Shown piece after piece: positions 1,521-9,295 of a stretch of 64,000 nt of DNA. Every line of letters starts with the position of its first letter. Positions within the stretch are counted from its first letter, which is position 1. The translations under genes were made by a program, and so were the position numbers. Origin of the DNA: Halalkalirubrum salinum (lineage in GTDB: Archaea > Halobacteriota > Halobacteria > Halobacteriales > Haloferacaceae); NCBI RefSeq assembly GCF_005543295.1, contig NZ_SRSG01000009.1:1-64000 (forward strand). The letters are read 5' to 3'. The notes beneath the pieces were generated by a model, which saw nothing but the letters and a program-made list of their open reading frames with translations, was not told where the DNA came from and ran no database searches.

Positions 1521-3176
1521 CTATCGATCGACTTCGCCCATGATCGTATCCAGACTGCCAAGTGTCGCGATCAGGTCCGGCACGTGTTCGCCAACAGCCA
1601 TTGCAGGAAGCGCCTGGAGATTCGAAAACGACGGGCCGCGAATCTTGAACCGAGCCGGTTTCTCGCTGCCATCTGCCCGAATGTAGATTCCCAACTCGCC
1701 TTTGGCTGCCTCGACAGCCCAGTACCCCTCGGCGTCATCAGCTGGTCGGATCGTCCGCGGGACGTTTGACTGGACTGTTCGGTCGTCGTCGGGCCACTCA
1801 GCGAGGAGGTCGACACACTGTTCGATAATTTTGGCTGATTCTTCGACTTCCTGGATGCGAACCAACAGCCGCGAGTAGTTGTCCCCGTGCGGCTCAGTTA
1901 TCACGTCCCAGTCAAGACGATCGTAGTAGCCGTAGGGGTCGTCGCGTCGCAGGTCGTAATCGATACCCGAGCCACGGGCCACCGGGCCAGTGCAGCCGTA
2001 GTTTTTGGCTATCTTGGCCGGAAGGATGCCAGTGTCGACGGTTCGGGCCTGGATGATCTCGTTATTAGTGAGAAGGTTGTGGATATCAGTGAGGCGCTCG
2101 GGGAGCCCATCGAGATACGAACGGACGCGATCGAGGAACGCCTCGCGTGACTCCGGCAGGTCCCAGGCGACACCGCCGAGTCGGAAGTAATTGAACATCA
2201 GTCGCTGACCCGTGAGGTCTTCAAGAATATTCTGGACACGCTCGCGCTCGGTGATCGCGTACATGAACGTGGCCGTGAAATCCCCCGAGATATCGAGCGC
2301 ATAGGCTCCGATCGCCAGCATGTGCGCCAGTATGCGGCTGAGTTCCGCAGACAGTGTCCGAATGACCTGTGCGTACGCAGGCACCTCAATGTCGGCGAGT
2401 GCCTCAGCGGCGCGGGCGTAGGCCCATTCGTTGCAGAGCCCGCCGCCGCTCCAGTCCCATCGATCGGGGTATGGCATGATCTGGTGGCGATAGGTGCAAG
2501 TTTGGGCCATCTGCTCCTCACATCGGTGGATGTAGCCGATATCAGGCTCGACAGCCGCGACCTGTTCGCCCTCGAGGGTGAGCTTGAGATGCATTACGCC
2601 GTGTGTGGCCGGATGGTGTGGCCCGATGTTGATGAACATCGTCTCTCCTCGCCCCTCGCTTGCCAGTGCGTGAGCCGAACCGTCTTGCTCTCGAAGCGGA
2701 ACGATCTGAGGCTGGGTTTGATCATAGCCCAGTGAGAGTGGATGACCCTGCCACGTCTCGGGCAGCAAAATACGCCGCAAATCGGGATGGTCTTCGTAGT
2801 TAATGCCGACCAGATCGAAGGCTTCCCGTTCGTGCCACGCGGCAGTCTGAAACACCTCGGACCCGGAGGTCGATCGCGGGCGCTCGCTGTCTGTCGGCAC
2901 GACGATACTCGCCTCCTGTGTCGGATCATCGTAGGATCGCAGATGATAGATCGTCTCATACCGATCAGCGTACTGCTGGGCGGTTACACAGGAGAGATGG
3001 TCCAGCCCAGATTCATTTTTGAGCGTGCTGAGGACAGCCGGCACATCCCGTGGGGAGATCCGAGCTGCTGGCGCGTTGCGGTGTGTCTCTTGTCCGATAA
3101 TTTTGTCTGCGATCGGGGCGAGGATGTCTGCCAGCGCTGATTCCGCTGGCATATGGCTACCGACTTCGCTCGACAT
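1521..3176 (-). CDS. nuoCD: Fused NADH-quinone oxidoreductase subunit C/D
   Basis: A 551-residue fusion of the two peripheral-arm subunits of respiratory complex I. The NuoC-like part (about residues 1-160) has the signature HEREAFDLVG followed by HPDLRRILLPETWQGHPL. The NuoD (49-kDa) part begins at about 190 with NIGPHHPATHG and includes GYIHRCEEQM and GCTGPVARGSGIDYDLR. Haloarchaeal NuoCD is normally inside a nuoA-N cluster; here no other nuo gene is adjacent. I chose ATG 3176 because the GTG 14 codons upstream lies before the start site expected from the TATA box near 3228-3239. It may be the only copy, moved out of its operon, or a second copy; only the full genome can tell. Confidence 0.92.
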   Translation of the reverse strand: MSSEVGSHMPAESALADILAPIADKIIGQETHRNAPAARISPRDVPAVLSTLKNESGLDHLSCVTAQQYADRYETIYHLRSYDDPTQEASIVVPTDSERPRSTSGSEVFQTAAWHEREAFDLVGINYEDHPDLRRILLPETWQGHPLSLGYDQTQPQIVPLREQDGSAHALASEGRGETMFINIGPHHPATHGVMHLKLTLEGEQVAAVEPDIGYIHRCEEQMAQTCTYRHQIMPYPDRWDWSGGGLCNEWAYARAAEALADIEVPAYAQVIRTLSAELSRILAHMLAIGAYALDISGDFTATFMYAITERERVQNILEDLTGQRLMFNYFRLGGVAWDLPESREAFLDRVRSYLDGLPERLTDIHNLLTNNEIIQARTVDTGILPAKIAKNYGCTGPVARGSGIDYDLRRDDPYGYYDRLDWDVITEPHGDNYSRLLVRIQEVEESAKIIEQCVDLLAEWPDDDRTVQSNVPRTIRPADDAEGYWAVEAAKGELGIYIRADGSEKPARFKIRGPSFSNLQALPAMAVGEHVPDLIATLGSLDTIMGEVDR

Positions 3177-3225
3177 ACCTGTAGATGAATCGCCATTTAC
3201 CCAACAATTCTGCCTCACTGCTCCG

Positions 3226-4548: not shown

Positions 4549-5652
4549 TCAATCGCCACGGACGGGATCGCGTGGAACCTCCGAGTCGTTCTGGGTAGGT
4601 TCGTGGAGCGCGCGATCGATCGAGAGGGGGCCGCCACCGGTGACAAGCAGCGCCGAGACGAGCCCAAACAGCGAAATATGCGCCAACACAGGATCGTCAG
4701 GCAGGCCGAACAGGGTTGTGACAAAAAGCAGGAAGGCAACGCCGGCGGCCGCACGGGTGAACGCCCCCACGATGAGCAACACGCCGACAAACGCCTCCGT
4801 GAGGCCCGCGCCAAGGACCCAAAGTTCCGGGGGAACTGGAACGACCGCGGTAAGATCGTACTTTGCGACGACCGCAAGCGCCTCACCCGGACGCATCAGC
4901 TTCTGGGCGACACCAAGATAGATGAACGAGATGCCAACGCCTATCCGGATGACCGTCGGGACGTACGCCGTGAGATGTTTCGTCCGCTCAACGAACGGGA
5001 GCGCGACCTGACGATAGAACGGATCGATACGCGAGTACAACGTCCGGTCGTCGGCAGCCATGGATGCGACGACGTGATCCGCGCTCGGACGGCCGCCCCC
5101 GACAAGCGCGATCGCCAGAAATCCCGGCACGTACTCAAAGGCAAGCATGAGTGCTGGCTGGACGGTGAACGCGACAAGGTACGAACCGAGCCCGATCGCA
5201 GCAACGAGTCTGGTGCCGAATCCAAACAACAACAGAAAGCCGATCGTGATCCCAAACAGCCGGACAAACACCGGCGCAGGGGGCTGGACGGCTGGCGAAA
5301 AGAAGTACCCTGAGAACCCAGCGCCGACCAATGGCAGGCCAATCGAGAGCCGAAGCAGCCACGGCAACAGTTCCTCGTAGGACCGAAGGATTCGCCGGAA
5401 GACCGCGATGTCGGTCCGAAGCGGCTGGAGCCGAAGGTACGCAATACCGACAGCAGTAACGGCAATCCCCCCGGCACCGATGACCGCCAGGTTGAATGGG
5501 GTCGTCAGGGCAGCGAGGAGAAATTCGATGACGTCGATCGGATCGCTACCCGGGGTGACGTATTCGACGTGTGCAGTCGCTGATCCAACTCCGGCGACCA
5601 ACACCGAAAGGAACCCGGCGATCGCGGCCACGCCGCGAACGGGAGAGAACAT
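4549..5652 (-). CDS. DoxX-family membrane protein (two DoxX-like halves)
   Basis: An integral membrane protein of 367 residues with about nine hydrophobic segments and an N-terminal signal-like segment (VAAIAGFLSVLVAGVGSATA). The C-terminal half (about residues 235-350) has the DoxX pattern RIGVGISFIYLGVAQKL and later LWVLGAGLTEAFVGVLLIVG; the N-terminal half repeats the layout more loosely, suggesting an internal duplication. DoxX proteins are often tied to oxidative stress or thiosulfate oxidation, but here there is no partner gene to define the substrate. The end is separated by 34 bases from the convergent amphi-Trp gene. Confidence 0.8.
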   Translation of the reverse strand: MFSPVRGVAAIAGFLSVLVAGVGSATAHVEYVTPGSDPIDVIEFLLAALTTPFNLAVIGAGGIAVTAVGIAYLRLQPLRTDIAVFRRILRSYEELLPWLLRLSIGLPLVGAGFSGYFFSPAVQPPAPVFVRLFGITIGFLLLFGFGTRLVAAIGLGSYLVAFTVQPALMLAFEYVPGFLAIALVGGGRPSADHVVASMAADDRTLYSRIDPFYRQVALPFVERTKHLTAYVPTVIRIGVGISFIYLGVAQKLMRPGEALAVVAKYDLTAVVPVPPELWVLGAGLTEAFVGVLLIVGAFTRAAAGVAFLLFVTTLFGLPDDPVLAHISLFGLVSALLVTGGGPLSIDRALHEPTQNDSEVPRDPVRGD

Positions 5653-5879: not shown

Positions 5880-7637
5880 TCAGTCGTCGACATCTTCGTA
5901 GATGGCCTCGCCGTCGAAGAGTCGCTCCGCAATCGTGACCGTTTGCTCGCGCTCGCGGCGAGTGGGGAAGTGAGCAGCCATATACCGTGCCGGCGCGATC
6001 AGCGCCAGTCGTCGTTCCCGGTCGCTTTCGGCCAACTCGAACTGTCGGAAGCCAGCTTCGACGTTCTGCAGGGTGTGGAAGTTAGCGTCCTCTCGTAACA
6101 GGCCCTCGCCCAGTGTCTGTTTGAGTGCTGTGGGGTCACCGTCGGCGTCGAAGTGCCCGGCGACGATCCGTGCCGCCTCGTCGACGCCGCCCTGCTGGTC
6201 GAGGACCGCCAGCAGGCGGTTCCGGAGTTCAGACGGGGTGCCGTCCGCGCCTGTCCCGGGGTTGGGAATGGTCGCCGGCGGCTGATTCAGGAACCGATCG
6301 AGATACACCGACATCGCACCCTGCCAGCAGGCCTCGTAGATGTCCGGGGCGTCGGTGCGACGGGCGAGGTTGTCGACGGCGTTGGCAAACGAGAACGTGT
6401 GGTGGACCGTGTTCCAGTCGCTGAATTCGTTCCCGGTGCCGAAGTGTGCGACCCGACGGAGTGCGGCGACCGCGATCGCGTGTGCGAGTTGCTCGGTATT
6501 CGCGCCGCCGGCGACGGCATCGCGCAGAGCGTCATCGATTTCGTGTGGGTCGCTCGACAGCAGCGTGTCGATGAAGTCGTTGGGGCGGTCCCACTCCTTG
6601 CCGGTCCCGGCGGCGACCATTTCGGGGAGGTCCTCGGCAGCGTCGAAACACAGCCCGGCCACGTCGATCGGCCGGGTCCACGTGCTGGTTTCTTCGCCCC
6701 GTGAGGCGTCCGCAATGGCGTCGACCACGGTGGCGAGGACGGGTTCCCGGCGGTCCCAGCCAACGTGGTCCAGTGTCTCGACGGCTTTGTTGAGGAAATC
6801 GATCGTGTGGCTGTTGTTCATATAGATATGGTCGGTGCCAGCGGCGACCAAGACTTCGACGAGGTCCTCGCGGTCGAGGACGGCCGCCGCGGTGCGAAGA
6901 CAGCGCTCGGCACCCGTACTGTCGCGAACATCGCAGGTGTCGCGGAACCACGATTTGAGCCGCGGCTTCGAGAGGTCGTCGTTGCCAAGCGCGTACTGTT
7001 CGAACCGAGGTGGTTCGCCGTCGCAGTTGTCCGCGACCTCGGTGACACCAACGATCATCGCCCGCAGTTTCTCGTCGTGGGCGAGGGCATCGTAGAGGTT
7101 CGCCATCGCGCCGAGCGTCGTCATTCCCCGCCCCCAGCCGTCGGCGCGGTACTGCGTTCCGAAATCGACTGCGGTCTCCAGTGGTGTCGTGAACCCGTCG
7201 CCGTAGTGGTCAAGGTGGATGACGGCCTTCGCGGCGACCAACGAGAGGTTTTCCGCTAGGCCGTCGGCCAGTCTGTTGCGCCAGTGGGTCTCCGGGGGCA
7301 CGTCGGGGTCGGGATCCGGGTCGATGTAGACGGTCCCGTCCTGAACCTGGGTGGGGAACGTCTGGACATCGTCGGCCCAGATGTCCAGCGTGTCACCCTG
7401 TGCGAGTTCGAACCGCGCGTGGTGCCAGTCACAGGTCAACAGGCCGTCTTCGACGCTGCCTTTCGAGAGCGGAAATCCCATATGCGGACAGCGGTTATCA
7501 ACTGCGTACACCTCGCCCTCGTGGTGAAAAAGTGCGACCGGGCGGCCGCCTGCCATCGTGACTGTCCGTCCGTCATCGCGGAGACTGTCGATGTCGGCGA
7601 CCGCGGTCATATCGTGGTCCGAGAGGTCAGATGACAT
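5880..7637 (-). CDS. Rieske [2Fe-2S] domain fused to a large unassigned domain
   Basis: A 585-residue soluble protein. Residues about 8-105 form a Rieske ferredoxin domain with both cluster motifs intact: C50-P-H52 and C69-D-W-H72. Residues about 120-585 are a mostly helical region that I cannot place confidently; it has conserved-looking histidine patches (HLDHYGDGF, NNSHTIDF, WNTVHHTFSF) and the stretch GWGRGMTTLGAMANLYDAL. The layout suggests an electron-transfer module feeding a monooxygenase-like or questin-oxidase-like catalytic part, but that is inference. It is a single gene with no redox partner next to it. The frame continues open past its stop codon. Confidence 0.8.
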   Translation of the reverse strand: MSSDLSDHDMTAVADIDSLRDDGRTVTMAGGRPVALFHHEGEVYAVDNRCPHMGFPLSKGSVEDGLLTCDWHHARFELAQGDTLDIWADDVQTFPTQVQDGTVYIDPDPDPDVPPETHWRNRLADGLAENLSLVAAKAVIHLDHYGDGFTTPLETAVDFGTQYRADGWGRGMTTLGAMANLYDALAHDEKLRAMIVGVTEVADNCDGEPPRFEQYALGNDDLSKPRLKSWFRDTCDVRDSTGAERCLRTAAAVLDREDLVEVLVAAGTDHIYMNNSHTIDFLNKAVETLDHVGWDRREPVLATVVDAIADASRGEETSTWTRPIDVAGLCFDAAEDLPEMVAAGTGKEWDRPNDFIDTLLSSDPHEIDDALRDAVAGGANTEQLAHAIAVAALRRVAHFGTGNEFSDWNTVHHTFSFANAVDNLARRTDAPDIYEACWQGAMSVYLDRFLNQPPATIPNPGTGADGTPSELRNRLLAVLDQQGGVDEAARIVAGHFDADGDPTALKQTLGEGLLREDANFHTLQNVEAGFRQFELAESDRERRLALIAPARYMAAHFPTRREREQTVTIAERLFDGEAIYEDVDD

Positions 7638-8165: not shown

Positions 8166-8576
8166 TCAATCACTCGAACTGTCGTACATCGCTTCGAATT
8201 CTTTTTCACCGCGGATTAATTCGTCTACGCCACTTGTGAGCGTCACCTTGCCGAACACTGTCGCGCGGTAGTACGTGTACAAGCCATCTTGTCCTCGGTC
8301 AGTGTGTTGCCGTTTTTCAACGAGTCCCACAGCAACGAGTTTGTTCAGGTGGTAGTGGAGGGTACTATCGTCTATATCGATCGCCGCTTCCAGTTCTTTG
8401 GGGCTCATGTCTCCGCTGTGAACAAGTCGGTAGAGGATCTCGTATCGAGTGCGGTGGCCGATCGCTGCATGCATCGCTAGATACTCATCCAGGCTGAGAA
8501 CGCTATTCTCAGGCAGCAAATCTTCAGGGTCCTCTGGAGCCCCTGGTTCGACTGTCTGCGTGGAATTCGTCGCCAT
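8166..8576 (-). CDS. Winged-helix (ArsR-like) transcriptional regulator
   Basis: A regulator of about 136 residues. Residues about 30-100 carry a winged helix of the ArsR type: LAMHAAIGHRTRYEILYRLV, MSPKELEAAIDIDDSTLHYHLNKLVAVGLV as recognition helix, and a wing ending in YYRATVFGKVTL. The N-terminus is acidic and unstructured. The ORF is open upstream, but MATNSTQ is a better start than the two Met codons before it. It is divergent from the neighbouring 206-residue gene across about 100 bases and probably controls it or itself; no metal-binding cysteine box is seen. Confidence 0.85.
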   Translation of the reverse strand: MATNSTQTVEPGAPEDPEDLLPENSVLSLDEYLAMHAAIGHRTRYEILYRLVHSGDMSPKELEAAIDIDDSTLHYHLNKLVAVGLVEKRQHTDRGQDGLYTYYRATVFGKVTLTSGVDELIRGEKEFEAMYDSSSD

Positions 8577-8642
8577 CTTGCTTCGTGATAGGGATTGAAG
8601 ACTCTTAGACATTCTCAAGCCGAACTCTCTCAAAAACTCTGG

Positions 8643-8674: not shown

Positions 8675-9295
8675 ATGGCTGTGGAAATCACACGCGATTT
8701 AATTGTCGAACGGTTGGGTCACGTGACGTACGACCGGTTCCTCTTTTACTTGATGGGGCCATACAAATCATTCAATCTCAACTACGTTCTCAGCGAGCAA
8801 GAGCAGCAAGAAATCGACGTGGAAGACCTTCCTGGGCCGCTTCGTCGATTATTCCAAAGCAAAGAAGCGATAGATGCGGCACAGGCACTCTTGCGACGAG
8901 TACAAGGAGCGCTTCGCGTGAATCCCGGAGTGAACGCGTTTCTCGCGCTTGATGTTGACGTGGATACTGATGATGTTGATGCTGCAACGCAGAGTATCGA
9001 CTACACACGGTGTAGCAACGCGACGGCGTTCATCCTGCCGTTTCTCGGGCATAATTTCGGTGTCGGAGAAGAAGCTGGAAGTATTCTAGAAGCGCTTTCT
9101 GAAACCCACGGCGACCGGTTGATTTTTATGCACGAGGATGACGTTACGAGTGCGATGATACGATCGGCGCAGATGCGATGGGACTTGCGGGTAGAAACAT
9201 ACGAGAATGAGTCAGAGCTCGTTTCGAAGCTTCGAATGTTCGCCGGCGGTATCATGCATCAAGAACGCCGGGGAGATCTCGCACCGTTAGATTGA
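8675..9295 (+). CDS. Haloarchaeal protein with possible nucleoside-hydrolase/TIR-like fold
   Basis: A 206-residue cytosolic protein of a family that I recognise only as a haloarchaeal DUF. It begins with a hydrophobic strand FLFYLMGPY (about residues 22-30), has a helical middle, and then a Rossmann-like stretch: CSNATAFILPFLGHNFGVGEEAG (113-135) with two Glu at 132-133, followed by DRLIFMHEDDV and DLRVETY. A GP(Y/M) after the first strand and a GxxxEhG motif are also seen in nucleoside 2-deoxyribosyltransferases and related NAD/nucleotide glycosidases, so a nucleotide-cleaving role is possible but unproven. It lies divergent from a winged-helix regulator and just outside an integrated element. 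Confidence 0.7.
   Translation: MAVEITRDLIVERLGHVTYDRFLFYLMGPYKSFNLNYVLSEQEQQEIDVEDLPGPLRRLFQSKEAIDAAQALLRRVQGALRVNPGVNAFLALDVDVDTDDVDAATQSIDYTRCSNATAFILPFLGHNFGVGEEAGSILEALSETHGDRLIFMHEDDVTSAMIRSAQMRWDLRVETYENESELVSKLRMFAGGIMHQERRGDLAPLD

Follow-up and report, generated by a model that had tools for sequence, protein, structure and literature searches.

The window, i.e. the whole 64,000-nucleotide stretch of Halalkalirubrum salinum DNA that was analysed, contains a gene encoding a Rieske [2Fe-2S] domain followed by a part of ~466 residues (beyond ~residue 110) to which family scans assigned no Pfam or NCBIfam family. What is this second part, and what would a Rieske domain do in the same chain? 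The gene lies on the minus strand at 5880..7637, with an ATG start and 585 codons for 585 amino acids. Because full-length relatives occur in many phyla, the open reading frame is far beyond chance. We read its product as a two-domain non-heme-iron oxygenase, in which a Rieske electron-transfer domain is joined to a domain of the questin-oxidase fold and which would act on an aromatic, quinone or hydroquinone-like substrate. We give this reading a probability of about 0.6.

The Rieske domain spans residues ~12-106 (7320..7604, minus strand). Residues 12-93 matched Pfam family PF00355 (E 1e-15; 57.8 bits against a cut-off of 20.3), and residues 12-106 matched the naphthalene dioxygenase ferredoxin 2qpz among the PDB sequences (E 1.3e-10). 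The two cluster motifs, of the C-x-H and C-x2-H form, are C50-P-H52 (7482..7490) and C69-D-W-H72 (7422..7433), both on the minus strand. We aligned 40 sequences, namely the window protein, 38 relatives and the divergent L042, and found C50-P-H52 as well as C69 and H72 invariant in 40/40. Near-identical sequences (e.g. L001, L003, L006 and L010), the partial loci L017-L019, L035 and L036, L054 with its in-frame TGA, L085, L086 and additional haloarchaeal loci stood outside this alignment. With a score above the cut-off and both motifs present, the domain is a member of PF00355, and the cluster motifs are intact, as the original prediction had stated. Its closest counterparts are free-standing Rieske ferredoxins, such as that of naphthalene dioxygenase. 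Ferredoxins of this type (2qpz, HcaC type) resemble the N-terminal domain of the window protein, but they are separate chains of ~100 residues.

For the C-part, Pfam listed nothing at E up to 1 except DUF7691, which fell short of its cut-off (E 0.069), and the NCBIfam scan returned no row. One oxygenase model of NCBIfam, that of 4beta-methylsterol monooxygenase, was hit by the Rieske part alone and scored far short of its cut-off.

The C-terminal domain (residues 120-585; 5883..7280, minus strand) was modelled with AlphaFold2 both within the whole protein (17 sequences; pLDDT 89.0) and alone (pLDDT 89.8). In both models it is all helical, apart from single strand-type residues. The domain model was compared with solved structures by VIA-align. 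The six top rows represented one kind of enzyme and covered most of the domain: BTG13 (7y3x, 7y3y and 7y3w; Z 17.7-17.5, 7y3x over 329 residues), AflY (8yxs; Z 16.6) and PaD (8z4r and 8z4q; Z 15.1), with an rmsd of 4.2-4.6 over 328-335 residues. The whole-protein model yielded the same three enzymes at Z 17.7-14.7, again with BTG13 first (17.7 over 330 residues). These scores exceed 14, the typical best VIA Z of helical models. The next four rows were C-terminal pieces of MgsA-type AAA+ ATPases (Z 13.2, 12.0, 11.9 and 9.4; 93-116 residues), and all rows below these had a Z of 6.2 or less. Foldseek placed 8yxs first for the C-domain (E 3.7e-3, TM 0.44, probability 1.00); nothing reached an E of 0.001 or better, and BTG13 was absent from the best 50 rows. 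The combined HMM and structure search of residues 120-585, which the original prediction had proposed, thus returned no Pfam or NCBIfam family and a fold of the BTG13/AflY/PaD type, matched over the full domain by a predicted model rather than a solved structure.

Within the C-domain model, the MgsA-type pieces matched residues 100-196 and, separately, residues 347-465 (2r9g at Z 13.2; 3bge at Z 9.4). These two MgsA-like parts may be an internal repeat or may reflect a helical unit that is shared. At the sequence level, MgsA_C gave a weak HMM match in 2 of 39 members.

Exactly three histidines of the C-domain were conserved in at least 95% of the aligned sequences: H277 (6807..6809; 40/40), H413 (6399..6401; 40/40) and H521 (6075..6077; 39/40, with Tyr in L014), all encoded on the minus strand. 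Each of them has a conserved partner, i.e. E287 at +10 from H277 (39/40), Ser or Thr at 416, +3 from H413 (40/40), and Q524 (6066..6068, minus strand) at +3 from H521 (39/40, with Lys in the divergent L042 only). Background column frequencies of the three partner columns give a product of ~4e-7, for a motif that was chosen after the fact. Furthermore, four charged residues were near-invariant across archaea and bacteria (E315, 40/40; D280, 39/40; D407, 39/40; K284, 38/40).

BTG13 carries H55 and H58 in its first helix, followed by the pairs H158/E168 (+10), H296/T299 (+3) and H374/K377 (+3). We checked this numbering by the mutant structures, in which H58F lies at 58 and the differing letter of the T299V chain at 299. 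By motif spacing, H277, H413 and H521 appear to correspond to H158, H296 and H374, with Q524 at the place of K377. The iron of BTG13 is held by four histidines and the carboxylated K377. Against this ligand set, three histidines of the window family have counterparts by motif, the lysine is replaced by Gln in 39/40, and a conserved first-helix histidine is missing, since no His column at residues 120-269 reaches 12/40. We infer that H277, H413 and H521 bind iron.

The original prediction had taken repeated histidine motifs as a sign of a metal-dependent oxidase part. In its HH motif (412-413), H413 held fully and H412 less so (31/40); its HLDH motif (141-144) is not conserved, with His at 141 or 144 in fewer than 12/40. 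Its broader proposal, a metal-dependent oxidase or oxygenase in the C-part, is supported by the predicted match to questin-oxidase-type enzymes together with the three histidines. It had also named two outcomes that would speak against it, a non-enzymatic family for the C-terminal domain and a lack of conserved histidines; both were looked for and neither arose.

Two other placements were considered. D407 was tried at the position of BTG13 H296. H413 is tentatively preferred, with Ser or Thr at +3 in 40/40, and because the match between L010 and Pfam family PF14027 also covers its equivalent (residue 299 of the L010 C-domain), near the estimated place of the LHxxT motif in the PF14027 profile. 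K137 was tried at the position of BTG13 H58. The ranges aligned by VIA favour residues near 170-173, again tentatively.

The divergent L042 (1147-2733, minus strand; from the cyanobacterial phylum) is also a Rieske fusion, with ~25% identity, and has Lys at 524 and His at 170. Judged from its sequence, it may lie closer to the BTG13 ligand set and is a possible intermediate. A drift from a BTG13-like set to a three-histidine set is plausible, on the basis of one sequence whose C-terminal third is uncertainly aligned.

How far does the kinship with questin oxidases extend beyond the predicted fold? The Questin_oxidase family PF14027 was matched by one of 17 members (L010; E 0.0043, 17.1 bits against a 27-bit cut-off), and unrelated families scored much the same (CMD, E 0.0023; MgsA_C, E 0.0087). 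In a second set, which lacked L010, PF14027 was listed for 0 of 39 members. The best score thus lies below 27 bits, outside the family. PF14027 had no match in the host's own genome, where the control matched in two genomes, below the cut-off. Searches of 84 Poribacteria-phylum genomes, of nine genomes or records that contain the studied loci and of three plasmids gave no match either; the controls were silent there too, so that absence is not implied.

A residue-level link to the solved enzymes was obtained only via bacterial questin oxidases. We built a profile from eight of these, namely a Streptomyces clavuligerus plasmid gene product (L087) and seven from Streptomyces or Rhizobium plasmids. 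Against PDB sequences, the profile matched PaD (E 3e-13), AflY (7e-7) and BTG13 (6e-4). In BTG13 the first stretch (32-184) was the only significant part; the second (289-382, with H296, H374 and K377) scored only 2.0 bits, with an independent E of ~840. The alignment of PaD to the profile is single (E 4e-12) and spans both stretches, and because of this parallel we accepted the second-stretch alignment of BTG13. Five histidines were invariant in the eight bacterial proteins. Three of them (H145, H291 and H375 of L087) are the corresponding ones, whereas the window family has no conserved equivalent of the other two, H48 (first helix) and H297. A Lys follows the last conserved His in only two of the eight. 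All of L087 to L094 (L087 from Streptomyces clavuligerus, L089-L094 from Rhizobium) are shorter and, unlike the window protein, lack a Rieske part.

Direct comparisons were weaker. Profile-profile alignment of the Rieske-fusion C-domain with the bacterial questin oxidases gave a probability of 0.3%, which is not significant; its local alignment does set H413 at the LHxxT histidine of the questin-oxidase family. A relatives' profile compared with L087 alone, and L042 compared with the bacterial profile, were not significant either. Searches of PDB sequences with the family's own profiles (hmmsearch) and with L010 and L042 (phmmer) returned nothing relevant. Sequence-level kinship with questin oxidases, as far as these comparisons reach, is therefore not significant. 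Because the direct sequence evidence is weak, we do not claim membership of PF14027; the claim is one of a shared fold and a similar site.

The fusion itself is widespread and conserved. Scanning a single genome for each species yielded 19 loci, three of which were partial (L017-L019). Their hosts were haloarchaea, Thaumarchaeota, Desulfurococcales, Acidilobaceae, Poribacteria and one cyanobacterial MAG. In the order of the host, a profile of the C-domain matched 147 of 293 sampled genomes (122 of the 255 of good quality), and 33 of the 60 nearest relatives of the host had a match. The cyanobacterial phylum gave 7 matches in 244 genomes, one of them a fragment and another the divergent L042. 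Among 72,556 plasmid records, 25 matched at E 0.001 or better, 24 of them over at least 80% of the domain. The plasmid matches include Halorussus, Paraburkholderia, Sinorhizobium, Microvirga, Nostoc, Gloeothece and Priestia; carriers of the C-domain overall comprise rhizobia along with Poribacteria, cyanobacteria, Paraburkholderia, Priestia and archaea other than haloarchaea. Most of the 25 plasmid rows (21) were annotated as Rieske protein, three had no annotation and one partial row read 'hypothetical protein'. The Rieske part was present in all 45 loci in which the whole protein was compared; these are the fetched loci rather than all matches, and they include the window's own copy (L045). 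The fusion described by the original prediction is thereby confirmed, and its interpretation partly supported. In a midpoint-rooted tree of 39 sequences, 20 haloarchaeal rows formed one well-supported group and four Thermoproteota rows another; L042 was excluded from this tree and from one of the relatives' profiles (A4). Scans of viral contigs found no relative of the Rieske fusion protein, and in a viral fold search nothing reached an E of 0.001 or better.

At least eight matches from the order of the host contain one in-frame stop (e.g. G037, G404 and G594; L054). Some copies in this order are therefore broken or mis-sequenced.

In the mechanism that we propose, a separate reductase would pass electrons to the N-terminal Rieske domain, which in turn would deliver them to a mononuclear non-heme iron at H277, H413 and H521. 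The iron, held in the helical questin-oxidase-fold domain, would activate O2 for the hydroxylation or cleavage of a compound of the aromatic, quinone or hydroquinone-like type. Electron passage between the domains, the use of O2 and the class of substrate are deduced from the fold and the conserved sites. The PDB title of 8yxs names a non-heme iron dioxygenase.

The original prediction suggested a self-sufficient oxygenase, which now appears too strong. Pfam and NCBIfam scans detected neither a flavin nor an NAD(P)H domain in the Rieske fusion protein. We compared the neighbourhoods of 23 loci, using open reading frames of at least 90 amino acids. All clusters found in at least seven loci lay inside or across the gene itself and were shadows in overlapping frames, and beyond the gene and these shadows no family was common to more than 4 of the 23 loci. 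None of the 23 neighbourhoods showed a recurrent reductase or pathway gene. Because no reductase domain was matched and no neighbouring family recurred in more than 4 of 23 loci, a separate, general reductase would be needed.

Several neighbours recurred in small numbers. A short-chain dehydrogenase was located near L024, L025, L028 and L085, just upstream in the case of Sinorhizobium L028. In L021 and L023 the gene just upstream is annotated as an alpha/beta hydrolase, and for L024 a hydrolase lies two genes upstream. A J-domain-like protein, judged by eye, occurred near L004, L005, L006 and L008. Such neighbours are suggestive, but they recur too sparsely to point to a particular pathway. 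In the window, the next gene downstream on the same strand encodes a DoxX-family protein (4549-5652, minus strand), with the DoxX match limited to residues 233-314. Further neighbours are a single open reading frame carrying both the 30 kDa and the 49 kDa domains of complex I (1521-3218, minus strand), a full-length DUF7509 match (8675-9295, plus strand) divergent from an HTH_20 regulator (8166-8633), regulators of the HTH_10 and HTH_20 types and an Amphi-Trp protein. None of these neighbours indicates a substrate.

The Rieske-fed iron oxygenase is our main reading, and its chief rival is a dioxygenase of the questin-oxidase fold that turns over without outside electrons. The Rieske domain would then keep the iron ferrous or reduce the quinone, replacing the fungal reductase. 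Rieske centres usually accept electrons from quinols or donate them to iron, and direct quinone reduction by such a centre would be unusual. Moreover, a site without the lysine and the first-helix histidine of BTG13 suggests altered chemistry. In favour of this rival are the same predicted fold and the fungal route itself. A review (PMC9890505) describes how, in the fungal relatives, an NADPH-dependent partner reductase first produces the hydroquinone, whose ring is then cleaved with O2, and how the ring-cleaving dioxygenases keep both oxygen atoms of O2 in the product. We regard such a dioxygenase as unlikely here. The same review (PMC9890505) calls GedK, a related fungal enzyme, cofactor-free, which would weaken the role of iron.

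Slightly less likely still is that the fold was retained and catalysis lost, leaving a redox sensor or scaffold in which the helical domain has a binding or regulatory function. The MgsA-type matches to parts of the model and the weak MgsA_C matches would suit such a protein, as would the missing first-helix histidine and lysine and the poorly conserved neighbourhoods. However, three histidines conserved in at least 95% of the sequences, together with the near-invariant E315, D280, D407 and K284, are more than a scaffold should need.

That the protein is a very divergent alpha subunit of a Rieske ring-hydroxylating oxygenase has a negligible probability; the original prediction had not recognised one either. 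In these subunits, too, a Rieske domain at the N terminus precedes a larger domain, but the catalytic part adopts a beta-rich helix-grip fold, whereas that of the window protein is predicted to be all helical. Membership would call for a catalytic-domain family match and a helix-grip fold with a 2-His-1-carboxylate site; no alpha-subunit catalytic family in Pfam or NCBIfam matched the C-part.

Several known systems come close to the protein as we read it. BTG13, a questin oxidase of Cercospora (7y3w; 7y3x, H58F; 7y3y, T299V), shares the predicted fold over ~330 residues and three histidines with the same local spacing (H158/E168, H296/T299 and H374); it differs in that the matched chain contains no Rieske domain, in possessing H55/H58 and K377, and in its overall sequence (~9% identity). 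The hydroquinone dioxygenase PaD (8z4q, 8z4r) and AflY (8yxs) likewise have the fold predicted for the window C-domain, at 8-10% identity, and PaD has H317 and H394-x2-K397, thus keeping the lysine that the window protein lacks. Rieske ring-hydroxylating oxygenases, if our reading is right, are similar in coupling a Rieske cluster to a non-heme iron oxygenase; their catalytic domain appears unrelated to the all-helical one modelled here. In our searches of the open-access literature we found no report of a fusion between a Rieske domain and a questin oxidase or AflY, and to our knowledge no other Rieske enzyme has the questin-oxidase catalytic fold. The protein is best seen as real, conserved and, as far as our open-access searches show, unreported, with a known Rieske domain and a known oxygenase fold in a combination for which we found no report.

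More tentatively, with the odds somewhat against it, the family could form a second class of Rieske-driven oxygenases, one of independent origin and spread across archaea and bacteria. Its iron site would have been rebuilt from histidines and lysine to three histidines, and an enzyme that relies on a separate reductase for its substrate would have become one with an electron supply of its own. If the oxygenase reading is true, a family found in half the genomes sampled from one archaeal order, and annotated just as 'Rieske' in most of the plasmid rows, would consist of oxygenases, and Rieske-powered non-heme iron chemistry would have arisen more than once. Its fold, for which BTG13, AflY and PaD are the solved examples in our comparison, would then be known from archaea as well. 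The fusion would also offer a single-chain system for asking how electron delivery alters quinone-cleaving chemistry.

Among the bacterial questin oxidases, the Rhizobium genes L090 (514-1551) and L093 (1414-2451) have an NAD(P)/FAD-dependent oxidoreductase gene on one side and an amidohydrolase gene on the other. In both products, the residue at +3 from the last conserved histidine is Ser and not Lys.
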